Source: Patescibacteria group bacterium | Lineage (GTDB): Bacteria; Patescibacteriota; Patescibacteriia; Patescibacteriales; Patescibacteriaceae | Assembly: GCA_030583705.1 (NCBI GenBank) | Contig: CP129471.1 | Span: forward strand, 238,506 to 302,505 | Reading direction: 5' to 3' | Length of the DNA: 64,000 bases | Position numbers and translations under genes: made by a program | The notes under the pieces: generated by a model | Told to the model about the DNA's origin: nothing | Databases searched by the model: none | Seen by the model: the letters and a program-made list of their open reading frames with translations, nothing else | Shown: positions 37,759-57,300 of the stretch, piece by piece | Layout of the letters: every line of letters starts with the position of its first letter | How positions within the stretch are numbered: the first letter of the stretch is position 1

Positions 37759-39682
37759 ATAAAGCTTTGAGAAACTCAAGAGTAGTATTTTTTTCTTGTA
37801 TAGTTTTATTAACTACTTGTTTAAGATTCTCTAATAGATCCATAAAATAATTTTTATCTTTAAGATCCTTGATTTCGATCAGGGATCTTTCGGCTTGTTT
37901 AAGGTGTTCGGTAATTAAAAAACATATTCCGTTCAATCGGTCTTGCCAAAATATTTTTTTTAGATTCTCTCTAGCTTCTTCAATAGTTCTATTATTTTCT
38001 CCAAGTTTTTGTTCGCTCGCTAAAATATCTTCCACTACCGGGGTTATTATTTTTTCATCAAGATCTTCTAGCCAGTCATGGGCATCATCCATCGTTTGTT
38101 TGGCAGCTAGATAGTTAATGAAAAATATTTTCAAGCAACTTATTGTTTGACTTGTTTGTTTATAGCCAGCTAAGTATAACACAGCTAAGGCTGAGAAAGC
38201 GTGTGGCATTGATTGAGCGGCTCTAGCTATAGTTGAACTTGCGTTAATTTTTTTATAAAGTCTATTTTGAAATTTTTTATCAATATCGTATCTTTTATCT
38301 TGTTCTTTAATTAAGGATAATTCTGAGTCTTCAAGTATTTCATATAATTCATCTAGCGCGTGAGGTGGCAAGATTGAAGTATAGATTTTTTGCATATTGA
38401 GTAGTCCATGAAAGATAGCTGGTAATAGATTACCACCTTCTTGGTGGTCAATAATTTTATCTTTAAGACCATAAACCAACCAACCCAAAGTGTTAGCTAA
38501 AGATATTTTAGCTAAGATTTTATTATTAATATTTTTAAGATTAAAAGATTTAAAACAATAGATCGGTAAAAGAGTTATATTCTTAACTTGTGAAGATTTT
38601 TCCAGTTTATTTATTTGTTTATGTATCAAGCAGTTTTCTGTTTGGGAAAATTTTTGGTAAATAATCCTTATTTGTTCAAAAGTCTTTAGTATATAATCAT
38701 CAGTTTCATTTAGGGTAAAAGTATTTGGTACTTTTTGTTTGTTGGCTAATTCATATCTTTGATAAGCTAGAGCGGTTTGGGCTGCTACCAGACATGGTGA
38801 GGCGGCATAGAGCTTATGACGGCCGCTTTGTTCAAGATAAAGCTTTTCAAGTGGCCAACGGCGGTTTTCTAAACAACTTTTAAGTCTTCTTATCGGCTCT
38901 CTTACCAAGGCTGGATTAACCTCGTTTTTTAAGAGAGAAGATACTAGGAGAGAAGTTTTAAAAATTGAACTTTTAACTTTTGGGTTGTTTAGATCGGTTT
39001 TTAGATTATTTAATAATAAATCTTTGTTTACTGTATTGCAATATTCGGCCATTAAAGACCTAACAGTGAAATAGTCATAATATAATGATTTATATGATCG
39101 TTTTTTTATAATATTTTCTAGATAACTTTTCAGGTTGGTATTATGTATTTTGTGATATTCTAAAAAAGAATGGATATTGGCATTAACTATTGGATCAAGA
39201 TCATGCCATTTACCCACTGGGTTTTTTATCAGCCATGTCTGATAAGGTCCTCCTGGTTGTGTTTCTGATTTAATTAAAAGTTTTGTTAGTTTAGCCCAAG
39301 CTGTGGGAGTTAATTGGTTTGGTCTAATTTTTGATATTACACTCCAGGCTAAGAAAGTATCATCAAGGTCATTGGGGTATAAGTTTTTATTATTTTTATT
39401 TTTATCTTTATCTTTATCTTCTTTAAAATAGTTAAAAGAGTAGTCTTCTTTTCTTTGTTTAATTAGAAAATTAACGGCTTTTTGGCATATTTCTTGGGCG
39501 GTTATTTCTTTAATTTCTGTTAAGCAGCGAGCTATCCAGGCAGTTATAAAGACGGTTTCTTGTGTTTTATTAATTTTACCATTTATTTCCACTGAGTATG
39601 ACAAGAATCCACCATCTTTATTTTGGTGGCGTTTTAGGTATTCCAGTGTATTGGCTAAGAGCTTTTGGCTTTCTTTGTTCAT
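37742..39682 (-). CDS. Terpene cyclase / prenyl synthase-like two-domain protein
   Basis: The N-terminal part (about 1-330) looks like the alpha/alpha toroid of squalene-hopene cyclase-type enzymes, with repeats such as NKDGGF near 21 and a class II DxDD motif, DLDDT at 105-109. The C-terminal part (about 390-560) resembles an all-helical class I prenyl-synthase domain. It has KDKIIDHQEGG near 406-416 and an Asp-rich DDAHDWLED at 532-540. The first metal motif is degenerate (KDxxxD). Together they suggest a bifunctional cyclase on a prenyl diphosphate, but the substrate is unknown. The start overlaps the end of the histidine kinase gene by 65 nt, implying co-expression. Confidence 0.6.
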   Translation of the reverse strand: MNKESQKLLANTLEYLKRHQNKDGGFLSYSVEINGKINKTQETVFITAWIARCLTEIKEITAQEICQKAVNFLIKQRKEDYSFNYFKEDKDKDKNKNNKNLYPNDLDDTFLAWSVISKIRPNQLTPTAWAKLTKLLIKSETQPGGPYQTWLIKNPVGKWHDLDPIVNANIHSFLEYHKIHNTNLKSYLENIIKKRSYKSLYYDYFTVRSLMAEYCNTVNKDLLLNNLKTDLNNPKVKSSIFKTSLLVSSLLKNEVNPALVREPIRRLKSCLENRRWPLEKLYLEQSGRHKLYAASPCLVAAQTALAYQRYELANKQKVPNTFTLNETDDYILKTFEQIRIIYQKFSQTENCLIHKQINKLEKSSQVKNITLLPIYCFKSFNLKNINNKILAKISLANTLGWLVYGLKDKIIDHQEGGNLLPAIFHGLLNMQKIYTSILPPHALDELYEILEDSELSLIKEQDKRYDIDKKFQNRLYKKINASSTIARAAQSMPHAFSALAVLYLAGYKQTSQTISCLKIFFINYLAAKQTMDDAHDWLEDLDEKIITPVVEDILASEQKLGENNRTIEEARENLKKIFWQDRLNGICFLITEHLKQAERSLIEIKDLKDKNYFMDLLENLKQVVNKTIQEKNTTLEFLKALSKIRS

Positions 39683-41093
39683 GTGAGATGGGTATTTTTA
39701 TAATAAAGGAGGTTGATTGGTCCGGGATAACTTTTACCTCAATCGTGCCTTGAAGATAGCGACTAATTAGTGATTTAACAGTTGGTAGCCCCAGACCCAA
39801 TCCACCAGTTTTTCTTTTGGTGGTAAAAAACGGTTTAAAAATATTTTTAATAATTTCTTGATCAATACCTCCGGCATAGTCTTTAAATTCTAGAATAAGT
39901 AAATCGTTTTCTTTAAAATATTTTATCTCTATTTTTCTTGGTTTTTCTTCGCTTAATGTTTTTTCTTTATAGGCATCAAGAGCGTTAGCTATCAGGTTAG
40001 TGATTATCTGGTGTAGATGTATGGGGTTAGCAAAAATTTCTACGTCCTCCTCGCTTGAAATTTTAATTTCAACGTTCAGTTTTTTGGCTGAATGGGTAAA
40101 AAGCAAAAAAGACTCTTCAAGGGTTTTTTTGATGGAGAAAAAGATATTAAGATCATTCATGTCAATTTGTCTTTGTATGGCTTGTATCAGGACGGTCATG
40201 CGTTGGCCGGCTGCTACTGCTCTTTTTGTTTCCTCCTTGGCACTGATAATAGCTGGTTGGTTATCTTTGGTCATTTCCAAGTTAAGAGCTATGGCTGAGA
40301 GGGGATTAATTAGGTCGTGAAAAAGTCCTGAAGATAATTTACCTAATTCAGCAAAACGATATAGTTGGCCTATTTTGTCTGCTTGGGCTTCTGCTAATTG
40401 TTTGGTTCTTTTTTCTATAATTTCTTCCAGTTCTTCTTGGTGTTTAAGTAAGGCTTTTTCGGATTTCTCGGCTCTTTTAAGGGAATTTTCCATATCTCTT
40501 CTAGCTAGCCAAGAGATAATGGTTATACAGATTAAAAGGATTGAATAAACATTAACGTCAATTAAACCAACCATTTCACTTTTCCACTCAGGTAAAAGAC
40601 CGCTTTTTATTTCCCTGTAGCCTATAAAATTTTGTACAATTAGAATAAGGCCGGCAATAATTAAGCCACAACGGTGCCCGATCACTACACTGGCGATGCC
40701 TATGGTTAAAGCGTAAGTCAATAGCACCGCTGGCAAACTTACTCCCCATTTCCATGATCCATAAAAAGAACCAGCTAAAAATGTAAAAACTAAAAGATAG
40801 CGAGCTATTTTATAGTGCCCCAGGCGTGATAAGAGATAGACAATTAAAAACCACAGAGTTATTAACTCTAACGTATTAATAGCTAAAGAAGCAGGAACAT
40901 TGTTCTTAAGTGAGTTAAGTAAATTAGCGGCGGTTAGGGCAATAAGTAAAGCACTGGAAGTTATCAGGGCTATATTTAATAAAAACTCTTGCTGACGGTC
41001 TCTTTGCTCGAAACTTTTTGGTTCAAGAAGGATTTTATATAAAACTTTTAAAAATCCTTTAAGTCTATGTAAGACGTTTTTAACGGAGGGCAT
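39618..41093 (-). CDS. Membrane sensor histidine kinase
   Basis: The 491-residue protein has about six transmembrane helices (residues 38-200) with no large external loop, so it probably senses something in the membrane. A coiled coil (about 200-240) leads to the HisKA domain with the phospho-accepting His259 in FHDLINP, and then to an HATPase domain. That domain shows an N-box NLIANALDAY, a G1-type DYAGGID and a G2 GLGLGLPTVKS. ATG 41093, 4 nt after the stop of a tiny ORF, is the preferred start. The response regulator lies upstream, and the terpene-cyclase-like gene overlaps the 3' end. Confidence 0.9.
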   Translation of the reverse strand: MPSVKNVLHRLKGFLKVLYKILLEPKSFEQRDRQQEFLLNIALITSSALLIALTAANLLNSLKNNVPASLAINTLELITLWFLIVYLLSRLGHYKIARYLLVFTFLAGSFYGSWKWGVSLPAVLLTYALTIGIASVVIGHRCGLIIAGLILIVQNFIGYREIKSGLLPEWKSEMVGLIDVNVYSILLICITIISWLARRDMENSLKRAEKSEKALLKHQEELEEIIEKRTKQLAEAQADKIGQLYRFAELGKLSSGLFHDLINPLSAIALNLEMTKDNQPAIISAKEETKRAVAAGQRMTVLIQAIQRQIDMNDLNIFFSIKKTLEESFLLFTHSAKKLNVEIKISSEEDVEIFANPIHLHQIITNLIANALDAYKEKTLSEEKPRKIEIKYFKENDLLILEFKDYAGGIDQEIIKNIFKPFFTTKRKTGGLGLGLPTVKSLISRYLQGTIEVKVIPDQSTSFIIKIPISHEQRKPKALSQYTGIPKTPPK

Positions 41094-41097
41094 AAGG

Positions 41098-41205
41098 CTA
41101 TTCAATTAACCAAGGTTCAAAAGCTTCGGTTGTTTCCGCTAAGCTTAGGTCAGGATCAAGTCTAGCTGTTGGTTCATTAAGTATAAGTTCAATTAAGTTA
41201 TTCAT
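41098..41205 (-). CDS. Possible 35-aa acidic peptide between regulator and kinase
   Basis: On the minus strand an ATG at 41205 opens a 35-codon frame that stops 4 nt before the kinase ATG. The peptide is acidic (many Glu and Asp, only one Arg) with an amphipathic start, MNNLIELILNEP, and ends in FEPWLIE. It follows its own extended -10 promoter and a 5' hairpin. Its close spacing to the kinase suggests either a leader ORF that controls kinase translation or a small regulatory protein. Codon-level conservation is untested. Confidence 0.45.
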   Translation of the reverse strand: MNNLIELILNEPTARLDPDLSLAETTEAFEPWLIE

Positions 41206-41260
41206 AGGTTTAGTTGATTATTTTTATTAAGCCGTCTTTTCGACCCTAAGACGTCTGGAT

Positions 41261-41269
41261 ATTTTATCA
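41261..41269 (-). promoter_or_regulatory. Promoter for the small ORF and histidine kinase
   Basis: On the minus strand TGA followed by TAAAAT forms an extended -10 at 41269-41261. Just downstream, complementary arms at 41248-41253 and 41233-41238 (CGTCTT/AAGACG) form a leader hairpin before the 35-codon ORF. Confidence 0.5.
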
Positions 41270-41316
41270 TTAAGCTCTTCAAGAAAAAGTAAAGATTTTA
41301 TAAAGATTTATTCAAG

Positions 41317-41979
41317 TTAACGTATAACATAGCCTCTACCTGAAACGCTTTTAATTAAGCTTTGGTCTGGTTTGCCCAACTTCTTTCTTAAATTAAGAAT
41401 ATGGGTCTCAATTGTTTTGGAAAAAGGGTCAGCGTCAATTTCCCAGACATGTTCAAGAATCATGGCCCGAGAAACTATTTGTCCTTTGTTTTTTAAAAAG
41501 AGTTCCAATAAGCCAAATTCCTTACGGGTTAGCTTGATAACTGTTTTGCCCTTTTTTACTTCACCTGAGCGGCTGTTAAGGGTAATCTCTCCGACTGATA
41601 AAACAACTGGTATGGTTTGTTTTGGTCGGCGAGTTAAGGCTCTTACTCTGGCCATTAGTTCAAGATGAGAACAGGGTTTAGCTAGATAATCATCAGCCCC
41701 TTCATTTAGAAGGTTGGCCTTTTCTTCCGCATTGTTTTTAATCGAGATAATCATAATGGGGGTATGCTTACCATCTTCTCTAATAGCTCGGCAAATTTCA
41801 GGGGCGTTTTTATGGGGCAAGATATTATCTAGTAGAATCAGATCATAGTTATTGGTTAGAGCCATGAATAAGCCCTTTTGTCCTTCTTCGGCGGTATCAA
41901 CAATTAAACCTTCAGACAATAAAGAAGCTTTAAGTGTTTCTCGGAATTCACAGTTGTCTTCAATAATTAGAACTCTCAT
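41317..41979 (-). CDS. OmpR/PhoB-family response regulator
   Basis: The 220-residue protein has a receiver domain (1-118) with the acidic pair Glu7/Asp8, phospho-accepting Asp51 (in LLDNILP) and Lys101 (in YLAKPCS). A winged-helix DNA-binding domain (about 125-220) ends in the typical KTIETHILNLRKKLG and SVSGRGYVIR motifs. It is the natural partner of the membrane kinase encoded next on the same strand, about 220 nt downstream. A TATAAT at 42013-42008 sits about 29 nt before the ATG. Its targets are unknown; the kinase-terpenoid operon is a candidate. Confidence 0.94.
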   Translation of the reverse strand: MRVLIIEDNCEFRETLKASLLSEGLIVDTAEEGQKGLFMALTNNYDLILLDNILPHKNAPEICRAIREDGKHTPIMIISIKNNAEEKANLLNEGADDYLAKPCSHLELMARVRALTRRPKQTIPVVLSVGEITLNSRSGEVKKGKTVIKLTRKEFGLLELFLKNKGQIVSRAMILEHVWEIDADPFSKTIETHILNLRKKLGKPDQSLIKSVSGRGYVIR

Positions 41980-42516: not shown

Positions 42517-43122
42517 TTATTTGGGTATTTTTACTTGGTAGATTCCGTTAGCCTTGGAGGCTTGTGAGCAATCGTCAAACCAAATATCAAAACGTCTACC
42601 CTTAATGATTCCTCCTTTATCTGTTACTAGGTAATCGTTATCATTTAAGGTAATGGTGGTATTTGGCGCAAAACAATTCCAGTCTGCGGCTATGTGCCCT
42701 GCTTCCGGTTCAACGGTTGAGGCTGTTTGGTGGCAGTAATCCACAGAGGTTTCGTCAAAATCAAGACAACCGGCCCAACTTAAGCTTCTTGAAGAGCAGT
42801 TTTTAAGAGCTTCTCGACCGTTTGGACAAGAACAGTTAAGAGCTACGGCACATAGGAAATCTGAACGTTTAGCAAAGTCTTCAAGTTTTGGTTGACAATA
42901 ACCAGTGACAAAAGCTTCAAAATAACCCCTAGATTTTTCTTCTTCGGAGAATTGATCACATTCTTTTTTAGTATAATCATCACGTATTTCTTCAAGGTTT
43001 TTGGTTAAAAGCAGACGATAAATTTTAGTACGTGTTGAAAAAGCCCCGTCTTCGGTGGCGAGGTGAAAAAAGGCGAAAGCAAAAATTATTAAGATTAATA
43101 TTTTTAAGTATTTTATTGTCAT
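42517..43122 (-). CDS. Exported 3D-domain (double-psi beta-barrel) protein, probable wall hydrolase
   Basis: The 201-residue protein begins with a signal/anchor helix (about 5-22). After a Cys-rich middle (six or more cysteines between 55 and 130) comes a 3D domain (about 140-198). This is the barrel seen in MltA-type lytic transglycosylases and Gram-positive resuscitation factors, and it is recognisable from GHIAADWNCF, the TDKGGIIKG turn and FDIWFDDC. Its three Asp-type positions are present (AAD, TDKGG, FDDC). The start is 1 nt from the stop of the M15-fusion gene, so it belongs to the pilin-hydrolase operon. Confidence 0.78.
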   Translation of the reverse strand: MTIKYLKILILIIFAFAFFHLATEDGAFSTRTKIYRLLLTKNLEEIRDDYTKKECDQFSEEEKSRGYFEAFVTGYCQPKLEDFAKRSDFLCAVALNCSCPNGREALKNCSSRSLSWAGCLDFDETSVDYCHQTASTVEPEAGHIAADWNCFAPNTTITLNDNDYLVTDKGGIIKGRRFDIWFDDCSQASKANGIYQVKIPK

Positions 43123-43123
43123 T

Positions 43124-44215
43124 TTATGGGTAAGTTATTCCATATTTTTGATGATTACTTTTCACCGATTGTCCAAAATCATATCTACCTGAAGCTCCAC
43201 ACTCAGCTCCGTTACGACAAGTTGGGACTGAGAAGTGCATATAATCTTTAAAACTTTTCCAATCTCCTCCCCAACACCAACCGTTTCTTTTAAATATATC
43301 AACCAGTTCTTTTGTAAAAGAATTTTTGTCGACTGTGTAATCTTTTCCTGCACCTACACCTGTTGGTCTGTAATATTTTCCGACCAGTGCTCCTTTTTTA
43401 CTATAACAATCAATACAATAATTTTCGTCAACGTTAACATCTATAGCTAAGCCACGACCATGACAATATTTTGACTCTCGGTAACCGCCAACTTCGTAAA
43501 TCGGGAAACCCGCATCTTTTACTTCTTTAAAAGTTTTTTTCATTAGTTCGGCAATTGTTTCATCAACTTGTACGGTTTTAGTTCCAGTGGTTGTTTCAAT
43601 TTGTACCTTTACAATATTAGTTGGAGCAACTTTTAGTTCAGAAATCGATTCATTATTAATAAAAACATCGTACTCTGTTTTATCGGGTAGATCTTCTTTT
43701 ATTAAAGTTGTTATTTTAAGGGGGGACAACTCCGTTAAAGCGGGATTAATAATATTTAAAATTATATAGGAACTAAAAGCTATTACTAAACCCGTTAAGC
43801 TACTGCCGATCCACTTTTTAGCTTCACTTACTTTTTGCGAATTCCCGCCGGCTGTTAACCAAATTACACCAGCTATCATCATAGCAACTACCGCTAGAAT
43901 TGATATTAGGCTTATGCCGTAAACATAAAGACCTTGTATGTAGTCTGCTACCCAGGGGACATAACAATTTTCTCCTCCTTCAGTCTCTTCACAGTGTACC
44001 TTCCTAAAATTAAGCCCCGGTATTTTAACGGCCAAATTAGGATTCTTAAAGGGGTCGCTTATCTTGGGAGTTGAAGAACCGGTTTCATCGCCTGTTTTAG
44101 GAGTTGAAGTACCTGTTACATCTTGTGCTAATACCAAAGAAGAGCTTGTTAGAAGCACAGAGAAAATTAACAGGCATATAGATAGGGCGAAGGTTTTTTT
44201 AGTTATATTTTTCAT
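43124..44215 (-). CDS. T4SS-pilin-like membrane module fused to an M15 D,D-carboxypeptidase domain
   Basis: The 363 residues fall into three parts. First is a signal peptide (1-30). Next is a VirB2/TrbC-like module (about 62-165): a Cys pair, YVPWVADYI, two transmembrane helices around AGVIWLTAGGN, and the closing NIINPALTELSPL. Last is an M15/VanY-like peptidase (about 220-350). The zinc signature HGRGLAID gives His252 and Asp259, and DYMHF gives His327, preceded by WGGDW. Such peptidases cut D-Ala ends or stem peptides of peptidoglycan. It overlaps the preceding small gene by 17 nt. Three paralogues of the membrane module lie upstream in the same operon. Confidence 0.88.
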   Translation of the reverse strand: MKNITKKTFALSICLLIFSVLLTSSSLVLAQDVTGTSTPKTGDETGSSTPKISDPFKNPNLAVKIPGLNFRKVHCEETEGGENCYVPWVADYIQGLYVYGISLISILAVVAMMIAGVIWLTAGGNSQKVSEAKKWIGSSLTGLVIAFSSYIILNIINPALTELSPLKITTLIKEDLPDKTEYDVFINNESISELKVAPTNIVKVQIETTTGTKTVQVDETIAELMKKTFKEVKDAGFPIYEVGGYRESKYCHGRGLAIDVNVDENYCIDCYSKKGALVGKYYRPTGVGAGKDYTVDKNSFTKELVDIFKRNGWCWGGDWKSFKDYMHFSVPTCRNGAECGASGRYDFGQSVKSNHQKYGITYP

Positions 44216-44546
44216 TGTTTCTTATTAAAAGTATCATAGTTGTTATTATAGCAAAAAAACCGATGACTGATAAAGAGAGTATGGTTTTTGGCTTCATTCT
44301 TTCTTTTTCTTCAACTTTTGGTCCGCAGCAGCATTCATTTAGAGATTCTCTTGTCATTGGTCCACATTTTGCATTATCCGCTTTATACCAATTAATATCA
44401 CCCATTTCGGTACTGCAATAAAGTCCGGGTCTCACATTAAGCCACAAACATTCTTCTTCGGCTTTTAAATTTTCTGTAGCAAATAAAGCAAATATTGAAA
44501 AAAAGATAAAAACAAAAAAGATTTTTTTTATTCTGGTGTTTTTCAT
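44199..44546 (-). CDS. Small Cys-rich exported membrane protein
   Basis: The product (115 residues from ATG 44546; an upstream start at 44570 adds eight) has a signal-type N-terminal helix, a Cys-rich external segment (C at CLWL, YCST, KCGP and the CCCG cluster) and a C-terminal transmembrane helix (about 85-107). The Cys spacing resembles the CC-C-C modules in the two largest pilin-like proteins of this operon, but there is no pilin module. It is placed between the transglycosylase and M15 fusions and overlaps the latter by 17 nt. It is probably an accessory of the same structure. Confidence 0.7.
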   Translation of the reverse strand: MKNTRIKKIFFVFIFFSIFALFATENLKAEEECLWLNVRPGLYCSTEMGDINWYKADNAKCGPMTRESLNECCCGPKVEEKERMKPKTILSLSVIGFFAIITTMILLIRNNEKYN

Positions 44547-44554
44547 ATTATAAT

Positions 44555-45613
44555 TTATCCCTTGGGACAAGTTCCATTGTCTGAGCTATTGTTTAGTGAG
44601 GTTACTCCTTGGGCTAAAATAGTTTCTACTGTTTGGACGACATATTTTCTTGGCGCTCCATTAAACGGTGGTTTACTGTCTGGCCAACTGCCTATGTTAC
44701 AACCGTATTTTTTTATATTATTAGTGAGAGCCCCACCTCCACTGGAGTGTGCGTAATATATTAGGAATATTTTTGCACTATCGCTAATACTTGAACAGTA
44801 TTTATTAATATTTCCCAGGTTGACTTTCATCATGCCAGTAGCTACGGCCGTGTTAACTGCCGGATCTTTAACTCCAGCTCGACAAAAACTTGAGCTTAAT
44901 CCGATGTGCCTGACAGAATCCGCACAATATTTATCTTTGGTTTGAAAGAGCCCGGTAAAGCCGTATTTATTAACCACCGTTGGTCTTAGAGTTGATTCTT
45001 TATACGCTATACCTTTAAGGACACGCCAGTCCACATTTATACAAGCTGCAAAGTTTTTAAAAGTTTCGTCAAAAGTCGTATCAGTAATTGGTTTACCGTT
45101 GGCCGGGTCAAATTGCGGGTCATGTTCATTAATGACCATAGTTTCAATATCTATTTTTTCAATAAAGGGCATCCTGATATTTTTTAAAATTGTCAGATCA
45201 GGGTTAATCGTATACAAGATTAAATATGATGACATGATAATTATTACACCCGTTACTCCGCCTGTTATCATTTTTTTTGCTTCAGCTACGCGATTTGGAT
45301 TACCGCCGGCGGCTATCCAAACAAGACCTCCCAACATTATAATTACTACCGCCAGGATAGATATAAAGCTAATGGCGTAATTTGTTAAAGAAGCTATGTA
45401 TTCACCAACCCAGGGAATATAACAAACCCCGGTTTCACAATCTACTTTTTCAAGACCAGTCATTCCTGGGATAGAGACTTTAACAGTGGGTGGATCAAGA
45501 GTTATGCCATCCGGGGTAGTGGTGTTGGCAGAGGTGTTATCTGTTATTAAGAAAAATACAAAAGTTACAGCTAGTATAATAATTGATTTTTGGAATAATT
45601 TTTTCCTAAACAT
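44555..45613 (-). CDS. T4SS-pilin-like membrane module fused to a lytic transglycosylase domain
   Basis: Residues 1-29 are a signal peptide. Residues 45-150 are the VirB2/TrbC-like module: VSIPGMTGLEKVDC, then CYIPWVGEYI, two transmembrane helices with AAGGN between them, then INPDLTIL. The C-terminal 165 residues are an SLT-type lytic transglycosylase domain with catalytic Glu206 in AYKES, a GLFQT segment near 221 and an IYYAHSSGGG strand later. This cleaves the glycan MurNAc-GlcNAc bond. Several cysteines (for example C191, C230) are unusual for the enzyme family and fit oxidative folding by the DsbA-like protein of this operon. The next gene upstream ends 5 nt away. Confidence 0.87.
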   Translation of the reverse strand: MFRKKLFQKSIIILAVTFVFFLITDNTSANTTTPDGITLDPPTVKVSIPGMTGLEKVDCETGVCYIPWVGEYIASLTNYAISFISILAVVIIMLGGLVWIAAGGNPNRVAEAKKMITGGVTGVIIIMSSYLILYTINPDLTILKNIRMPFIEKIDIETMVINEHDPQFDPANGKPITDTTFDETFKNFAACINVDWRVLKGIAYKESTLRPTVVNKYGFTGLFQTKDKYCADSVRHIGLSSSFCRAGVKDPAVNTAVATGMMKVNLGNINKYCSSISDSAKIFLIYYAHSSGGGALTNNIKKYGCNIGSWPDSKPPFNGAPRKYVVQTVETILAQGVTSLNNSSDNGTCPKG

Positions 45614-45618
45614 ATTGA

Positions 45619-46914
45619 TTATTTATATATAGCTATAACACCAGCATTTATTTTGCAACATTTATTAACTTCAGACATTTGGATTTTATCTGTTCCTCTT
45701 TTTAAGTTTCCTTCATTTGGGTCATTAGTGTAAAGAACTCCGTTGCTATGACCTGTAATAACTATGTAGTGAGCACCGCCTGTAAAGGCACATCTGCATT
45801 TCCCATTACCTGTAACACTGGCTATAACAGGACCATGTTGCAATAGGTTAATTGCATCATTAAAACTCCCACCTGTTTTATGTTTTAGATTATATTGACT
45901 AGCTATTTTACTAAAACCTGGCATTCCTCCTCTCCAACCACCACAGCTAGTGTTTGTTCCCCCTTGCCAGCTACCGTTATTTTTAGCTGTTCGGGCTATT
46001 TCCGGAGCTGTAACTTTTACGCCATGGTAATTAAGAACCATAGCTAAAGAAGTCGGGCCACATCCGCATTTACCCATACCCATGTCAAGGCTTTGAAATC
46101 TTCCTTGGTATAAGATGGGAATATTGTATTGTCCTTTTCCGGTGCCAAGATTTTCAGTTGGTAAACTAGGGTCTGTATATTCACTAACAAGATCTTCTGG
46201 TGGAAGAAATTCTTCAATATCAACTTTTGTTATGTAATTTACACTAATTGGCTTTAAAATAGTCAGATTGGGATTTATTAAAAATAGAATAAGGTAAGAG
46301 CAGAAAGCTAAAATCGCTCCCACGGTACCGCTTTTGATCAGTGAATTTCCTTGGCCTATTTGTGAGCGATTACCGGCGGCTGTTAAACGAACAACTCCGC
46401 CTAACATAATTACCACTACCGCTAGTAGGGTAATAATCGTTAGGCTGTATTTGTATAAAGCGCCTATATATTCGGCAATCCAAGGTATTTCACATTTTTG
46501 GTTGTCTTCATCACATTTTATTTCTGAAAATTTACCAAAACCCGGTATAGAGACTTGTAATTGCGGTAGTATCGGATCTCTAGTAGGTTCAATTTTTCTC
46601 TTTTCTTCTTCAACCGTTGTTCTGTCTACACAGCTTTTATTATCAATACCGACTTTTTTGTTAATATAAAAGTTAACATTTTTGGTATCAGATATATAGT
46701 TATAACATTGTTCTTCGGTAGTGTTTTGATAAGTCTTCCCGCCCAAGCTCATCGTTCCTCCTACTCCAATATTTCCTGATTGTATAATCTCACAACAACC
46801 CATGCCTTCCAGTTCTTCTTCTCCTTTAATTGATTTATCTGGTACAAAGAAAAATATTAAAAAACTTAAAGCCAAGATAGGCAAAATTTTGTTTTTTATA
46901 AATAATTTTTTCAT
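45619..46914 (-). CDS. T4SS-pilin-like membrane module fused to a C39-like cysteine peptidase domain
   Basis: The 431 residues comprise a signal peptide (1-28), a Cys-rich module beginning GCCEII (39-96), the VirB2/TrbC-like module (about 120-225, with CEIPWIAEYI and INPNLTIL), and a C39_2/papain-like peptidase (about 262-431). The catalytic Cys285 lies in GCGPTSLAM, His382 in GGAHYIVITGH, and Asp398 in NDPNEG. Peptidases of this kind in wall-active proteins cut peptide bonds; a proteolytic or peptidoglycan-stem target is possible. The gene lies 5 and 9 nt from its neighbours. Confidence 0.87.
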   Translation of the reverse strand: MKKLFIKNKILPILALSFLIFFFVPDKSIKGEEELEGMGCCEIIQSGNIGVGGTMSLGGKTYQNTTEEQCYNYISDTKNVNFYINKKVGIDNKSCVDRTTVEEEKRKIEPTRDPILPQLQVSIPGFGKFSEIKCDEDNQKCEIPWIAEYIGALYKYSLTIITLLAVVVIMLGGVVRLTAAGNRSQIGQGNSLIKSGTVGAILAFCSYLILFLINPNLTILKPISVNYITKVDIEEFLPPEDLVSEYTDPSLPTENLGTGKGQYNIPILYQGRFQSLDMGMGKCGCGPTSLAMVLNYHGVKVTAPEIARTAKNNGSWQGGTNTSCGGWRGGMPGFSKIASQYNLKHKTGGSFNDAINLLQHGPVIASVTGNGKCRCAFTGGAHYIVITGHSNGVLYTNDPNEGNLKRGTDKIQMSEVNKCCKINAGVIAIYK

Positions 46915-46923
46915 AGTTATTAA

Positions 46924-48063
46924 CTACTGAGCCATTCTACCGGGAATGATTTGAATGGGATTTTCTGCTGTCCCGCGACACTTACTCCAGTTGGTGCATT
47001 TACCGAACTGGAACTCGGTTGCTATATCTCCTGTAGCCTCACCGTAAAGCCAACTTCCGACAGCGGCTAATCCGCCACCGATGACTCCTCCAAGTATTGA
47101 GCCCAAGCCACCGGATATTACTGATCTAAGATCGTTTGAAAAAGTGTCTTTGTCTTCACATTGGGATTTTGGATAGTCTTCAACACACATGCCTGCGTAT
47201 TTTTTATCTCCGACTACCATGTCTCCATCTCTGTCTTTTACAAAGCAGCAACCATGCGTTAGGATACATTTATTATCTTGGGCCATATGGTTAATCATAA
47301 ACTCAACGGAGTTATAGCCATTTGGCCCTATATCTTCTTTGGCTTTTTCACAAACCGAGTTGGTGGTTGTTTCCGCGGTGGTAACCAATTGGCTCACATT
47401 ATCTTTAGTTTCCCAGGCCTTTTTAAGACAACAGCCCACGCCCATTTTATCAAGATCTATCTTGGCTATTTTAGGTACAGGGGTTATTTTCAGCTCGGTT
47501 AAATTAGTGTTAATTGCCGACAATATAACAAATGAACCTAAGGTTAAAACAATACCAACTAAAGATGAGGCAATCATGGATTTAGCTTTACTAACCTTTT
47601 CACTGTTACCGGCTGAGGTTAACCAGATTGTGCCGGCTAGCATCATAACAACGACCGATATAATAGCAATAACTCCTATGGAGTATTTTAAAATAGCCAC
47701 GATATAATTTGCTATATTGCCAGTATCATCTTGCATTTGGACGGCTTTACCAGACTGATACTCTGAATCTGGAATACCCACTGCCGGAACGAAATTAAGC
47801 GGTTGACCTATCGGCCTCTCATTAAAATTACTCGGTAGGCCAACACATTTATTAGCATCAGCTGTTTGTCTCGGAAACCACTTAGTGGTATGGGTGTTTA
47901 TTTCTTTACAAGCTTTTTGTGTTAAATTTTCAGTTGTTATTACATTATCTGTTCCCGTCTTTTGGCAGCAACCTATCATCTCTTGGGCTCCGGCTATTGG
48001 TGCTTGTAAAATAAAAAAAGAAACAGCGATAAGCTTGATTAGTAAAATTGAGGTTGTCTTCAT
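46924..48063 (-). CDS. T4SS-pilin-like protein with Cys-rich modules and no enzyme domain
   Basis: The 379-residue protein starts with a signal peptide (1-25), preferring ATG 48063 over a longer frame to 48096. A CC-C-C module (IGCCQKTG, about 28-75) is followed by the VirB2/TrbC-like pair of transmembrane helices (about 118-185, with WLTSAGN) and two further Cys modules (VGCCLKK and HGCCFVK). A Gly-rich hydrophobic segment near the C-terminus (GGLGSILGGVIGGG) could insert in a membrane. It lacks a hydrolase and may be the structural or scaffold paralogue of the set. It lies 16 nt after the dsbA-like gene. Confidence 0.82.
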   Translation of the reverse strand: MKTTSILLIKLIAVSFFILQAPIAGAQEMIGCCQKTGTDNVITTENLTQKACKEINTHTTKWFPRQTADANKCVGLPSNFNERPIGQPLNFVPAVGIPDSEYQSGKAVQMQDDTGNIANYIVAILKYSIGVIAIISVVVMMLAGTIWLTSAGNSEKVSKAKSMIASSLVGIVLTLGSFVILSAINTNLTELKITPVPKIAKIDLDKMGVGCCLKKAWETKDNVSQLVTTAETTTNSVCEKAKEDIGPNGYNSVEFMINHMAQDNKCILTHGCCFVKDRDGDMVVGDKKYAGMCVEDYPKSQCEDKDTFSNDLRSVISGGLGSILGGVIGGGLAAVGSWLYGEATGDIATEFQFGKCTNWSKCRGTAENPIQIIPGRMAQ

Positions 48064-48079
48064 ATTTTCGTATTTATTA

Positions 48080-48808
48080 TTATAAAGAATTTTCAATCAG
48101 CTTGGTTAAATCTTGGATGGTCAGAGCGCCCTCTACTTTTCTTCCGTTAATAAACCAAGTTGGCGTACCCACGACACCTAAAGTTTTTGAATCAAGGTAG
48201 TTTTGTCTGATTTGTTGTAAATATTTTTTTTCATCAAAACAGGTTTGGAACTTTTCATTATAGACTCCTAATCGTTCCGCCAAAATAGCTAAATTATTTT
48301 TGTCTTTTCCGAGAGCGTCGGAATAGTTTTGAAAAATCATATCATGCATTTCCCAAAACTTACCTTGTTCACCGGCGCAGTAGGCGGCCATGGCCAAGTC
48401 AATGGATTCGTCATGCCCTGGCCAGTCCCGAAAGATTATTTTTACATCTTCGGCGTATTTAATGCTTATTTCTCTTAAAACCGGAAAAGACACTCGGCAA
48501 AAAGGACAGGCAAAGTCGGAAAACTGTACAATCGTTACCTTGGGATTATCACTGCCGATTGAATGATTATCTATTCCTTCTATGAGTCTTTTTTCAACTT
48601 CCGTATAGCCAGAAATCTTTAATCCATTTGCCGGTTTTTTTTCCGCTATCTGTAAATATGAGCCGTCGGCAATTTGGCGGTTTTGTTCAAGTAGGTAGCC
48701 TGCGTAAAGTAAAATAATTAAAACTAAGAATATGGCTATGGGAGTAAGGATAACCCCGATAATTATTTTTACCGCACTGTGCTTGTGTTCTTTTTTTTCT
48801 TCAGACAT
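48080..48808 (-). CDS. DsbA/thioredoxin-like membrane-anchored thiol oxidoreductase
   Basis: The 242-residue protein has an N-terminal membrane anchor (about 12-38) and a DsbA-type domain with the active site CPFC in FSDFACPFCRVSF (near 97-107). The helical insert (FWEMHDMIFQ) and the cis-Pro segment GVVGTPTWFING follow. It forms or shuffles disulfides outside the membrane. As first gene of the operon that encodes Cys-rich pilin-hydrolase proteins, it very likely folds them. ATG 48808 is preferred to the TTG at 48820. The divergent gene region upstream contains an inverted repeat at 48832-48848. Confidence 0.92.
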   Translation of the reverse strand: MSEEKKEHKHSAVKIIIGVILTPIAIFLVLIILLYAGYLLEQNRQIADGSYLQIAEKKPANGLKISGYTEVEKRLIEGIDNHSIGSDNPKVTIVQFSDFACPFCRVSFPVLREISIKYAEDVKIIFRDWPGHDESIDLAMAAYCAGEQGKFWEMHDMIFQNYSDALGKDKNNLAILAERLGVYNEKFQTCFDEKKYLQQIRQNYLDSKTLGVVGTPTWFINGRKVEGALTIQDLTKLIENSL

Positions 48809-48831
48809 ATATTTGTCCAATTACCTTATCT

Positions 48832-49750: not shown

Positions 49751-52621
49751 ATGAAATACGACCATAAACAAATAGAAAAACACTGGCAAGAACTTTGGGA
49801 AAAGAATAAAGTTAACGTTACGCGAGAAAAAAAGGAAAATCCCAAGTTTTATATTTTGGATATGTTTCCTTATCCTTCAGGGGAAGGTCTTCATGTCGGA
49901 CACCCGAAGGGTTATATTGCCAGTGATATTATTGCCAAGAAAAAAGTCATGCAGGGTTATAATGTTCTTCATCCCATGGGTTGGGACGCTTTTGGCTTAC
50001 CAGCGGAAAATTATGCCATTAAAAATAAGCTTCATCCCCAAAAGGCTATGACGGAAAATATTGCTCGTTTTAAAAAACAGTTGCAAATTTTGGGTTTGGG
50101 TTATGATTGGAGTAGAGAAGTTAACACCACTGATCCCGCTTATTATAAATGGACCCAGTGGATATTTTTAAAGATTTTTCAGACTGGACTAGCTTATGAG
50201 TCAAACGAACCGATTAATTGGTGTCCTTCTTGCCAAACCGGACTGGCTAACGAAGATTTGGAAAACGGACTTTGTGAACGTTGCGGTTCAGTAGTAGAGA
50301 AAAAGCCTTTGCGCCAGTGGGTCTTAAAGATCACTGATTATGCGGAAAGGTTACTTAGTGATCTTGAACCCCTAGACTGGCCAGAAGCGATTAAAGAATC
50401 ACAACGTAATTGGATCGGCAAATCCGAGGGGGCGGAAATTGATTTTGAGGTTAGTCTGGAAAAAGAAAAAGAACCAGAGAATAATAAAAAATTTATTGTT
50501 GGTGTTTTTACCACTCGTCCAGATACTATTTTCGGAGCGACTTATTTGGTTTTAGCTCCTGAACATCCTTTACTTGAAGAATTAAGCGATTTAGCAGATA
50601 ACACCAAAGAGATTTTAGCTTATCGCCAAGCAGCAGGAAAAAAGACCGAGCTAGAAAGAGGGGCGGAAAATCGTGAAAAAACCGGTATAGCCATTAAGGG
50701 TCTTTATGCGCTTAATCCGGCTACCGGAGAAAAAATTCCGGTTTGGGTTGCCGATTATGTCTTAGCGGATTATGGCACCGGTGCGGTAATGGCCGTGCCA
50801 GCTCATGATGAAAGAGATTATTATTTTGCGGTTCAGTATGATTTACCTATTAAAAACGTTATTCAGCCCATTTTTATAGATAAAAATAATCCTCCACAAG
50901 AAGGTAAAAAAACCGTTGAAAGAAAAACTATTCATGCTTTAATTAGAGACCCAGAAAACGACACTTGGTTGGTTTTAAAATGGAAAAAACAGCCTTGGCG
51001 AGGTTTTGTAGTTGGGGGAGTGGATGAAGGGGAGGAGTTGGTTGAAGCCGCTCGTCGCGAAGTACTTGAGGAAACTGGCTATGAAGATCTTCTCTATATT
51101 AAAACTTTGGGCGAGTCGGTAAGGTCTGAATATTTTGCTGCCCATAAAGACGAGAATCGTTTGGCAATTACCTCGGCTATTTATTTTGAATTACAGAGTC
51201 AACGTCGCCGTGAAGTTTCCGAAGAAGAACAAGCCAAGCATGAAGTTGAATGGGTTAAGTTGGATAGTTTAAACTCGGACAACATGACTTGTGCTGAACT
51301 TGAATTATGGAAAGAACGCTTAAGTGGTAATTTTGCTTATACTAGCGAAGGGCTTTTAATTAATTCCGAACAATTTAATGGACGACTATCCTCTGAAATT
51401 TTTGAAGAAATTATTAAATTTATTGGAGGTAAACTTAAAACTCGTTATAAACTGAGGGATTGGGTTTTTTCTCGGCAAAGATATTGGGGTGAGCCTATTC
51501 CTTTAATTCATTGCGCTAAGTGCGGTGTAGTAGGAGTACCGGAAAAAGATTTACCAGTTACTTTACCAGAAGTTGAGTCTTATCAGCCGACGGGGACCGG
51601 TGAGTCACCTTTGGCGGCTATAGAAGATTGGGTTAGAACGGTTTGCCCAGAGTGTGGTGGAGAAGGTAGAAGAGAAACCAATACCATGCCCCAATGGGCG
51701 GGCTCAAGTTGGTATTATCTTCGTTATATTGATCCAGACAATGAACAGGCTTTAGTGGATAAAACTAAGGAAAAATACTGGTCGCCGGTGGATCTTTATA
51801 TTGGTGGAGCAGAACACGCCACCAGGCACCTTATTTACGCCCGTTTTTGGCATAAATTCTTGTATGATCAAAAGATTGTTTCTTATCCCGAGCCTTTTAC
51901 CAAATATTCAAATTTAGGCCTTATTTTAGCCGAAGACGGCAGAAAAATGAGTAAACGCTGGGGTAATGTCATTAATCCGGATGAAATGGTGGAAAAATTT
52001 GGAGCTGATGCTTTTCGTTTATATGAGATGTTTATCGGGCCCTTTACTAAATCAGCCGGTTTTAAGGTTAGTGGTGTAGCTGGTGCTCGTGCCTTTTTGG
52101 AAAAAGTTTGTCGTTTGGGCGAAAATTTAAGTGATCAAGAAAACAGTCCAAAAGCCCATAGCTTACTCCATAAGACAATTTTAAAGGTAGGCGACGATAT
52201 AGATAACTTAAGATTTAATACCGCTGTTTCTTGTTTAATGATTTTGGTTAATGCTCTTTTGGAAGAAGAACAAGTTAATAAAATCGTTTATGAAAAACTT
52301 TTAATTATTTTAGCACCTTTTGCCCCTCATTTGTCAGAGGAACTTTGGCATAAGCATTTTAATAAGTCAGAAGACGAATCAATCTTTTTTAAAGTTTGGC
52401 CGAATTATGACCCGGCTTTAATTAAAGACGAAGAGGTAATGGTGGTTGTACAAGTTAACGGGAAGGTTAGAGATAGGTTTATGATTGAAGCCGAAACTGA
52501 AGAAGAGATTCTTAAAACCAAAGCTTTGTCTTTAGAAAAGATAAAAAATATTATTGAGGGTAAGAAAATAATTAAAGCAGTGATTGTTAAAAACAAATTA
52601 GTTAACTTGGTGGTTGATTAA
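49751..52621 (+). CDS. leuS: Leucyl-tRNA synthetase with an inserted Nudix domain
   Basis: LeuRS charges tRNA-Leu and hydrolyses mischarged tRNAs in its CP1 domain. HIGH appears as HVGH (48-51) and KMSKS as KMSKR (732-736); zinc-type CPSC and CERC pairs lie near 165-190. Between the editing segment GAVMAVPAHDERDY and the SEQFNG motif of the same domain sits an extra block (about 385-525). It contains a complete Nudix box (GGVDEGE, then REVLEETGY, about 421-443). Nudix domains hydrolyse nucleoside diphosphate derivatives. The frame is open throughout, so this is a genuine insertion. rsmA follows after 30 nt. Confidence 0.95.
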   Translation: MKYDHKQIEKHWQELWEKNKVNVTREKKENPKFYILDMFPYPSGEGLHVGHPKGYIASDIIAKKKVMQGYNVLHPMGWDAFGLPAENYAIKNKLHPQKAMTENIARFKKQLQILGLGYDWSREVNTTDPAYYKWTQWIFLKIFQTGLAYESNEPINWCPSCQTGLANEDLENGLCERCGSVVEKKPLRQWVLKITDYAERLLSDLEPLDWPEAIKESQRNWIGKSEGAEIDFEVSLEKEKEPENNKKFIVGVFTTRPDTIFGATYLVLAPEHPLLEELSDLADNTKEILAYRQAAGKKTELERGAENREKTGIAIKGLYALNPATGEKIPVWVADYVLADYGTGAVMAVPAHDERDYYFAVQYDLPIKNVIQPIFIDKNNPPQEGKKTVERKTIHALIRDPENDTWLVLKWKKQPWRGFVVGGVDEGEELVEAARREVLEETGYEDLLYIKTLGESVRSEYFAAHKDENRLAITSAIYFELQSQRRREVSEEEQAKHEVEWVKLDSLNSDNMTCAELELWKERLSGNFAYTSEGLLINSEQFNGRLSSEIFEEIIKFIGGKLKTRYKLRDWVFSRQRYWGEPIPLIHCAKCGVVGVPEKDLPVTLPEVESYQPTGTGESPLAAIEDWVRTVCPECGGEGRRETNTMPQWAGSSWYYLRYIDPDNEQALVDKTKEKYWSPVDLYIGGAEHATRHLIYARFWHKFLYDQKIVSYPEPFTKYSNLGLILAEDGRKMSKRWGNVINPDEMVEKFGADAFRLYEMFIGPFTKSAGFKVSGVAGARAFLEKVCRLGENLSDQENSPKAHSLLHKTILKVGDDIDNLRFNTAVSCLMILVNALLEEEQVNKIVYEKLLIILAPFAPHLSEELWHKHFNKSEDESIFFKVWPNYDPALIKDEEVMVVVQVNGKVRDRFMIEAETEEEILKTKALSLEKIKNIIEGKKIIKAVIVKNKLVNLVVD

Positions 52622-54376: not shown

Positions 54377-57300
54377 ATGAAGAAGCGTTTCTCTTTGCTT
54401 TTATTTATTGTTGCAATAATTTTTTCATTATCTGTTTACAAGGAGGTTTCTGCTATCGCTGGGCAGGCTTTAACAGTCCCTACCCCAACAGCCGAGTTAA
54501 CATCTATTCCTGAAACTACTCGTACTATTACTGAGTCTATTTGGGAGAGTTTAAAAAAGGCGGCTCAAACCAGTTTCGTTACTTTGTTTAGAAGCGCTAT
54601 TAATCAATACGCTTATGAAACGGCTACTTGGCTTGGTTCAGGCGATCATGGGCAAAAACCGGTTTATCACACCAAGGGTTTTGGACAATTTATCCGAGAT
54701 ACCGGTGCTAATGCTGGTGGGCAGTTTGTTGAAGATTTTTTAATGTTTAGGGATCGGGGTGGTTCAGACGGTGATATCTTTAATACCGCCTCTAGTTTGG
54801 GGGTGGATATTTGCGCTCCCAGTATTACAGCTAGTTTGCAAATCTCTTTGGGTCTAACAGATTACTTAAACGAAAGTCGTGGTATTCCAGAGTCAAAATG
54901 TAACCTTACCAATATTTGGCAAAACTTAGCGGGTAGTTGGGATGATGCTTTTGGCTATGAAGGACAAGGAGTTAATCATCCTCATTTTTGGAATTCTTTA
55001 GCTCAGACCGCTTTTAATCCGGCTACTACTCATGTTGGAGCAGCCGCTACTTTGTTCGGAGTTTCCAGCGAAAGAGTTGCCGAGGAGAGAGGAATAGCTT
55101 CTCTTGAAAGAATAGTTTCCGGTGAGTGGAAAAATCCATCTAACCTACTTTCCGGTTGGAGGCTTTCTCCACCCGATTACTCCAAGGGTCGTTATGAAAT
55201 GGCCGAGGAGTTGGTGCAACAAAATATTTTCCAGCAAACAGGTAATGCTATTGTTGACGCTGCTAATATTTTCTTAAATCAATACGCTTTAACTGCTTTT
55301 AATAAGTTTATTGCTAGTTTATCTAAACAAGAAGGCCCAGGGGACTTTAGCAGTAGTTTCTTTTCTCAGGGTTCAAGGGGTGGTATTAATCAGATAGCGC
55401 AAAGATCCAATAGAATAATGCAAACCCAGTTTAATGAAAAGGTTGATTATGATGTTTTAAGTGAAATGATTTCTTGCCCTGATCCGCAAAACCCGGGACC
55501 AACCAACTGTGTTATTACTCAACCCTTCTCTCAAGCCATTTCTAGACAACTGACTATTGGTGACGCAGTTAAGCAAGGGTTAATTGAAGGAGATAAAAGA
55601 ATAGGCTATGACCAAAGTGGTAATGATTTGGATATTAATAACGGTTATCCTTACAGGTCCTTAATAATTCTTCGCAAATATAGAATTTTGCCAGTAGGTT
55701 TTGAAGTGGCAGCTGATTATATTAAAAATAATAGCGGAGAAACCAGATTTACTACCTTGCAAGATCTGATTGATTGTTATGATGGTAGTGATTCTTACGA
55801 AGGATCTTATGACACTACAGCTTGGTGTAAGGGTTTGATTGATCCCAATTGGACTCTTAAGATGCCAAGACAGTTTTGTGGTATGATCGGCTATGGTCCG
55901 ACTATTCTTTCACAACAAACCGTACCAAAAACCAGGGGAGTTTGTGTTTCTGTTGAAAATTGTCATACAAATACGGCAGGCTGTGAGACTAATTATAAGG
56001 AATGCACTAACGCACTTACGGATTGCACAGAAACTCCTTATACATTCTGTAATTTTAATTACGCCCAAGAAGTTAACGTAGCCAGGGCACAGTCTTATTG
56101 CGCGGATGAACAGGCTTGTATTAAGGAAAATCCTAATGGTACCTGTGCTTTTTATGGATATTGTACGGAAGAAAGAAGACGTTGGGTTTTTGGACAAGCA
56201 TCGGATAACAGTTGTGAAGCGCGTAATAACAGTTGCTCCACCTTTAGAGGTAGCGAAGGGCAAACTGTTTCTTATTTGCAAAACACTTTATCTTACGATA
56301 ATTGTGGTCCTGATGAAGTTGGTTGTAAAAGATACGCTACTATCGGAACTTATAACCAGGCGAATAGCTCAATTAACTGGACGGGCGGAGAAAGATTTTT
56401 TAATGCAAAAATTGAGTCTTGCGATTCTGGTAATGAAGGATGTCACAGTTTTATTAGGACAGAGAGTAGTTTAGACGTTAACCTGATAGCTGATGGTAGC
56501 TTTGAGGAAAGTCTTTGTATTGTGGAGGTAGGAGGAGGTGTCTCAGGTAACTCAGATAATAATAATGAAGTTATAACCAAAGGTAAATTATCTTGGTTTG
56601 ATTCTTTAATTAAAGGGGCAGTGGCTCAAAACTCTTTAGCTAGTTGTTTAATCAGTAATTTCTCTTCTTCAGGTAATTTGCCTAGTCCAAATAATCATTG
56701 GTATATAAGAGTAGCACCTGGACAATCCGCTAAAGCCGGGGTAACCAACAGTGATTCAACTCATGCCAGCCATAGCCTTTATGTTGAAGGACAGGCCGGT
56801 CTTTATTCTAAATTGGACGGTTCAACACCCTCACTTTTACCGGCTGGTTTTTCCATGGAAGGTGATGTTTATTATTCCCTGGCCGCCGCGGTTAAAGTTT
56901 TGGAAGGTAAAGTCAGGATCGGTTTTGGCGGTGGAGAAAATCGTTTTGTTGAAATAGATTCAGACGGTGTTTGGGAAACCAGAAACTTGGAATTTTATAA
57001 TCCGTCTGGTGTAGCCTCGGCTATTGATTTCTATATTGAAGGCACAGACGGTACTGCTAAATTCTATATTGACTCAGTAAAATTAAGTAAAGGTAGAGCC
57101 GAGCTTACTTATAAACCATATGGCCAGGGCGGACAAATTTATCAAAAACTATTACCAGCTTACCTGGAAGCTCTTTGTTATGAGAATGTTCAAGGTGGAA
57201 ACTTTAGCTATAAAGACAATGCACCCGATGAGTGTTTTGATTTTGCTAGAAAGTGTGGTGCTGATGAAGTCGGTTGTGAAAGGTATACTTCCCTTAAAAC

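Follow-up and report, generated by a model that had tools for sequence, protein, structure and literature searches.

Pilin-like two-helix modules fused to exchangeable peptidoglycan hydrolases in a Patescibacteria operon: candidate wall-opening subunits of a type IV secretion system

The stretch of DNA analysed here (the window: 64,000 nucleotides, positions 238,506 to 302,505 of contig CP129471.1, assembly GCA_030583705.1) belongs to a Patescibacteria genome consisting of a single contig of 869,590 b, 95% complete, whose named relatives are Ca. Falkowbacteria and their neighbours and which is presumably a member of class ABY1. On the minus strand, from 48820 down to 42517, seven genes stand no more than 9 nt apart (three pairs overlap in the gene calls), in the order DsbA-like, Cys-rich module, C39 module, SLT module, small Cys-rich, M15 module and 3D (intergenic distances in this direction: -17, 9, 5, -16, -17 and 1 nt). 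The term module refers to a two-helix unit, present in four of the proteins, of the pilin-like family T4SS_pilin (PF18895) of type IV secretion systems (T4SSs). An earlier reading made without database searches (the sequence-only reading) had placed the set at 42517-48808, and its genes are present there, all on the minus strand. The features are as follows.

48080..48820, minus strand: DsbA-like membrane-anchored thiol oxidase with CPFC (Pfam: Thioredoxin_4 1.2e-29, DSBA 1.2e-17)
46924..48096, minus strand: Cys-rich module protein (NCBIfam NF045849, pilin-like, 1.6e-7, under cut-off)
47467..47781, minus strand: two-helix module of the Cys-rich protein, residues 106-210
45619..46914, minus strand: C39 module protein with C-terminal C39-like cysteine peptidase domain (Peptidase_C39_2 2.2e-19)
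46231..46557, minus strand: two-helix module of the C39 protein, residues 120-228, slot 2
45715..46092, minus strand: C39-like catalytic domain, residues 275-400 (Pfam)
44555..45613, minus strand: SLT module protein with C-terminal lytic transglycosylase domain (Pfam: SLT 6.9e-9)
45161..45481, minus strand: two-helix module of the SLT protein, residues 45-151, slot 3
44705..45040, minus strand: SLT catalytic domain, residues 192-303 (Pfam)
44199..44570, minus strand: small Cys-rich secreted or membrane protein with C-terminal hydrophobic helix
43124..44215, minus strand: M15 module protein with C-terminal D-Ala-D-Ala peptidase domain (Peptidase_M15_4 8.2e-16)
43706..44029, minus strand: two-helix module of the M15 protein, residues 63-170, slot 4
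43229..43462, minus strand: M15 catalytic domain, residues 252-329 (Pfam)
42517..43122, minus strand: separate 3D-domain (double-psi barrel) hydrolase-like protein (3D 1.1e-4, 22.8 bits against a cut-off of 23.8)

Better starts are offered by ATG codons at 48808 for the DsbA-like gene, near 48063 for the Cys-rich module protein and near 44546 for the small Cys-rich protein, whose position is kept in two congeneric genomes (L040 10691-11044, L041 10794-11123; L numbers label loci and G numbers genomes). The Cys-rich module protein is made up of a signal peptide, an ecto cysteine segment, a T4SS_pilin-like hairpin and a C-terminal Cys-rich domain, the C-terminal cysteines being conserved in an alignment with 29 relatives. 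The other three module proteins end in catalytic domains with Pfam matches well over the curated cut-offs: the C39 protein holds GCGPTS, AHYIVITG and NDP motifs, the SLT protein has its catalytic Glu within AYKES, and the M15 protein carries the HGRGLAIDV...MHF motif. The divergence of three modules into these domains, and the completion of the set by a DsbA-like oxidase and a 3D protein, had been recognised in the sequence-only reading and are upheld by the profile matches listed, that of the 3D domain lying just under its cut-off. Cysteine accounts for 2.3-5.0% of the six exported operon proteins (3.6% in the Cys-rich module protein) compared with 1.05% in the other open reading frames (ORFs) of the window, a content which agrees with the presence of the adjoining oxidase gene.

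The assignment of the modules to the T4SS pilin-like family, suggested by the sequence-only reading, is supported for all four by Pfam T4SS_pilin, with 26.6 bits for the M15 protein (cut-off 26.6), 26.4 for SLT, 18.2 for C39 and 17.2 for the Cys-rich protein; in a whole-genome Pfam scan the M15 and SLT modules are over the cut-off, and several related module proteins exceed the curated cut-off well. Of the shared architecture described earlier, all four modules possess I-N-x-x-L-T and the AG(G)N turn, whereas IP-W-x-x-[ED]YI is found in only three, the Cys-rich module showing NIANYI at this site. A profile built from fused modules, the four of the window included and the stand-alone array pilins left out, scores the four at E values of 1e-35 to 1e-45 and detects the stand-alone array pilins of the same genome at about 1e-15. 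Judged from this profile, the four modules are homologous beyond chance. Up to an E value of 1, the genome yields 17 matches to T4SS_pilin, among them the four of the window, two giant Ig/fn3 fusions and further single matches elsewhere. Six stand-alone pilin genes lie in tandem at 847.6-850.0 kb (L009 7596-10046), near dnaN-like and dnaA-like ORFs, and a similar placement has been reported for other Patescibacteria.

In the AlphaFold2 model, the module of the M15 protein is a helical hairpin (helices 30-63 and 68-98; mean predicted local distance difference test score, pLDDT, 88), that is, two long helices with a short turn as in the PF18895 family. For the Cys-rich protein, confidence in the model extends only to about residue 281 (mean pLDDT 69, residues 292-390 below 50). 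Since a signal peptide precedes the hairpin, both ends are predicted to face outward and the loop inward, with the hydrolase outside the cell. The enzyme domain begins about 40-80 residues after the hairpin.

When the C39 protein is used as the query, related modules are found in 30 of 31 genomes, with matches almost all within the module; a chance gathering of pilin modules was considered and rejected on account of this recurrence. A scan of the genome collection with the module patterns alone gave 77 loci; these, which make up most of the loci used, and those from the C39-fusion query provided 136 module proteins with a C-terminal part, 128 of which match T4SS_pilin at E up to 0.01. The Pfam partner domains in this set, whose counts overlap among related families, are SLT (16), VanY (10), C39_2 (5), NlpC/P60 (5) and M15_4 (4), with rarer cases of phage lysozyme, Amidase_2 and 3D (2 each), glucosaminidase, M23 and a peptidoglycan-binding domain (1 each). 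Proteins found by their module alone bear almost every class of peptidoglycan hydrolase. Within the order, 21 of 28 genomes have a module with a recognised hydrolase domain. The 3D domain, separate in the window, is fused directly to the module in relative L059 (8293-9273; 2e-6, over the cut-off), and fusions also occur outside the class, with C39 (L225, Pfam) and, by motif, with LAS-like or CHAP/NlpC-like domains. In L208 (214-1983), a module, an SLT-like domain and an SGNH-hydrolase-like segment follow one another in a single protein, as seen by eye. The module also anchors cargo other than hydrolases. At 143.2-152.6 kb of the same genome (L010 9217-18624), the two giant surface proteins, of 908 and 2224 amino acids with Ig-like, fn3 and TIG domains, carry an N-terminal T4SS_pilin-like module, and in two relatives (L120 6794-7819, L126 9841-11085) the module is joined to an alpha/beta-hydrolase-like domain, unlike the usual wall hydrolases.

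As in VirB1-like hydrolases, the catalytic domains on the modules retain active-site residues according to Pfam and motifs, and these motifs are kept among relatives, as the sequence-only reading would have it. The catalytic Glu is present in 13 of 13 SLT members, the His/Asp/His motif in the M15 members, and Cys and His in all five C39 members as well as in the NlpC/P60 members; the last two families were judged by inspection, the automatic C39 pattern being too strict (one match in five). This conservation makes it highly improbable that some of the domains serve in wall binding or adhesion and not as enzymes, even though an adhesin role has been suggested for inactive VirB1 homologues of Gram-positive systems (PMC12857230) and one C39-like member (L040 12886-14334) has a weak score and is without the usual Asp.

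The comparison of modules with their C-terminal parts gives the stronger result, one which the sequence-only reading did not contain: different catalytic domains can replace one another on a module that stays constant. In the module tree, where C-terminal parts were labelled by local similarity and motifs, with Pfam on representatives and the pooled set, the SLT modules form their own clade (97/84), and those of Cys-rich type from the genus are united, along with a single C39-like member, in a supported clade. The slot 4 clade (98/89), in contrast, bears M15, Amidase_2, NlpC/P60, C39 and glucosaminidase domains, and the slot 2 modules group together (93/82) with C39, NlpC/P60 and M15 domains and one truncated member; gene order agrees with the tree where the loci are complete. 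Orthologous modules thus bear different enzymes in congeneric genomes. The replacement at the module end is seen directly in G010 and G006, from another genus of the same family: their DNA is 87% identical over 629 aligned nucleotides covering signal, ecto part and module, and past the module all similarity is lost, with M15 at the end of one protein and C39 at the end of the other. In G012, a third relative, the similarity to the M15 protein persists throughout. As a guess, the exchange may proceed through recombination between the conserved modules. So clean an exchange of enzymes on a constant membrane module is unusual, and it suggests selection for wall cutting itself, and not for one particular bond, or for tracking different walls.

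This rapid exchange of catalytic chemistry between congeneric genomes would fit a changing target. It is possible, if quite improbable, that the fused subunits are loaded into a VirB2 pilus or its tip and cut the peptidoglycan of a host or prey at the contact site. An enzyme placed at the C-terminus would be able to face outward in a VirB2-type pilus. A distant relative, moreover, needs its T4SS for epibiotic growth (PMC10633639). On the other side, the source organism has no known host, polymerisation of such bulky fused subunits finds no support here, and, provided that the module remains membrane-bound, linkers as short as these point to the cell's own wall. A modular wall drill, in which a VirB2-type pilin lattice presents hydrolase subunits at the pilus tip or surface and the enzyme is exchanged by recombination at the module end so as to suit the wall of whichever host is in use, is a clearly unlikely extension.

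In the source genome, VirB4 lies at 312.9-314.8 kb and a VirD4-type coupling protein at 329-332 kb; PrgI-like, TrsD-like and polytopic VirB6-like ORFs, named by position and by similarity to other virB4 loci, adjoin VirB4, the VirB6-like ORF having no Pfam support. Among the 31 genomes, virB4 co-occurs with the modules in 28, an outcome in line with the co-occurrence that the sequence-only reading proposed to check. In the order, the modules stand behind a DsbA-like gene beside xth/leuS; in other ABY1 families, modules and a DsbA gene are found beside or inside the virB4 operon. There the fusions are encoded together with T4SS genes; in the window itself they lie apart from VirB4. The clearest arrangement is that of SURF_31 (L121), in which PrgI, TrsD-like, VirB4, a 208-aa-type protein (aa, amino acids), a 237-aa protein, a Cys-rich module, a propeller-like protein, DsbA-like and an SLT module follow on one strand; PrgI, DsbA and the propeller are identified by Pfam, and the 208-aa-type protein is a relative of one at the virB4 locus of the source genome. 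In a class-wide sample of 59 evenly drawn virB4 genes, a fused module lies at most about 9 kb away in 29 loci, about 15 of the loci also contain a DsbA-like gene, and the hydrolases there include SLT, VanY, M23 and Amidase_2. Reading the flanks further in 14 loci without a match revealed fused modules at roughly 10-21 kb in six. The binomial probability of this linkage, 4e-20 to 3e-14, assumes a background of 0.06-0.10 per locus and ignores shared ancestry, and therefore shows only that chance placement is no serious option.

It could be argued that the module does no more than anchor proteins in the membrane in a general way, and that the operon is a set of housekeeping autolysins with which the cell grows and divides and which have no connection to the T4SS. 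The window operon does lie outside the virB4 operon, the module carries non-wall cargo as well, and the cell probably builds its own wall, since a bifunctional penicillin-binding protein is encoded. Against this reading, the genome has further, unfused M23 copies, which would be available for general use. From housekeeping wall enzymes one would also expect the same chemistry throughout a genus, whereas here it is swapped, and the virB4 linkage in 29 of 59 class-wide loci takes, in places, the form of one same-strand gene run. Taken together, an autolysin set is regarded as unlikely, though not far-fetched.

The fusions are probably VirB2-like anchors joined to VirB1-like hydrolases which open the peptidoglycan at the T4SS. 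In favour of this, the source genome encodes VirB4, a coupling protein and stand-alone pilins, and the only SLT and the only M15_4 domains detected in it are the fused ones, while C39_2 occurs in two further copies. The operon would then encode wall-opening subunits of a Patescibacteria-type (MPF-FATA-related) system. The VirB2-like two-helix module would act as the membrane anchor of an outward-facing peptidoglycan hydrolase and hold it at or near a translocon with VirB4, PrgI and VirB6-like components, while the oxidase would form the disulfides of the exposed domains. The glycan strand may be cut by SLT, and perhaps by 3D, and the stem peptide by M15 and probably C39; cutting of the nearby peptidoglycan would give passage to the channel or to a VirB2 pilus, which is the job of VirB1. 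Because the hydrolase is predicted to lie outside, at the short distance from the hairpin given above, action of a membrane-held enzyme on the cell's own wall is favoured, in the manner of VirB1 homologues in Gram-positive systems, and this wall would be the first target.

Several observations weigh against this assignment. Foldseek comparison of the module with the PDB gave no match at E up to 0.001 and no solved VirB2 pilin; the proteins returned were long-helix ones of low confidence, AcrA among them. Searching the PDB by sequence profile gave no pilin either, so that the case for VirB2 homology is drawn from Pfam and from the way in which PF18895 has been used in the literature. Matches of the modules to TrbC/VirB2 (PF04956) are weak (best E 0.001, under cut-off), and the homology of PF18895 modules to true VirB2 is weak at the sequence level. 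The positive-inside charge favours the proposed topology only mildly. For 7 of the order's 28 genomes, the fetched loci gave no module with a recognised hydrolase domain. About 26 kb separate the window operon from VirB4, the cassette-virB4 distance is 24-34 kb in the five order relatives with both on one contig, and about half of the class virB4 loci have no fused module within 9 kb, partly since contigs end.

Quinonero-Coronel et al. (2025; PMC12102498) used PF18895 and describe VirB2-like pilins and pilin arrays near virB4; the modules here belong to the same family by profile, and the source genome has such a stand-alone array. The same survey reports few VirB1 homologues and relaxases in few Patescibacteria genomes, and infers that pilus biogenesis can for the most part do without VirB1; in the passages of its main text that were searched, hydrolase fusions to VirB2-like pilins do not appear. 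In Gram-positive T4SSs, all known VirB1 homologues are membrane-anchored (PMC12857230). PrgK, TraG of pIP501 and Orf14 of Tn916 are likewise extracellular T4SS-serving hydrolases of SLT/CHAP/LytM type; unlike them, the present proteins use a T4SS_pilin-type two-helix module as the anchor and usually carry one catalytic type each, which differs between close relatives. The Mbov_0395-family pilin-like conjugal transfer proteins of mycoplasma integrative and conjugative elements (NF045849), to which the Cys-rich module shows its sub-threshold match, are described by a model of only 80 positions, whereas the window proteins carry extra domains on both sides. In Ca. S. epibionticum, peptidase and lysozyme homologues downstream of virB4 are essential for epibiotic growth, as cited in the main text of PMC12102498; in this Patescibacterium, wall hydrolases stand beside virB4.

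Some further features were observed around these loci. A response regulator and histidine kinase downstream of the operon (39618-41979) were considered for a regulatory role, which was dropped because both are absent from the two congeneric operons with flanks read (L040, L041). At 49751-52621 on the plus strand, a leucyl-tRNA synthetase has a NUDIX domain inserted after its editing domain, also in L040 and L041 and not in L039. A 2706-aa ORF at 54377-62497 (plus), preceded by a TSP3-repeat protein, is a large surface protein with a carbohydrate-binding domain as its sole match, and at 62579-63838 (plus) a protein combines a Por_Secre_tail match (type IX-like sorting) with a sortilin/YCF48-like propeller. 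In six order-level relatives (L057, L058, L059, L063, L065, L067), a module pair stands amid the subunit genes of an apparent pyruvate:ferredoxin oxidoreductase operon.

Transposon sequencing has shown the T4SS and its pilins to be essential in S. epibionticum (Wang et al. 2023; PMC10633639), the one Patescibacterium in which a requirement for epibiotic growth was tested, while the phylum-wide survey, in its main text, found no general VirB1. The fusions described here are a candidate for this missing wall-opening part of the Patescibacteria T4SS, and they would explain how a search for a stand-alone VirB1 could miss it.

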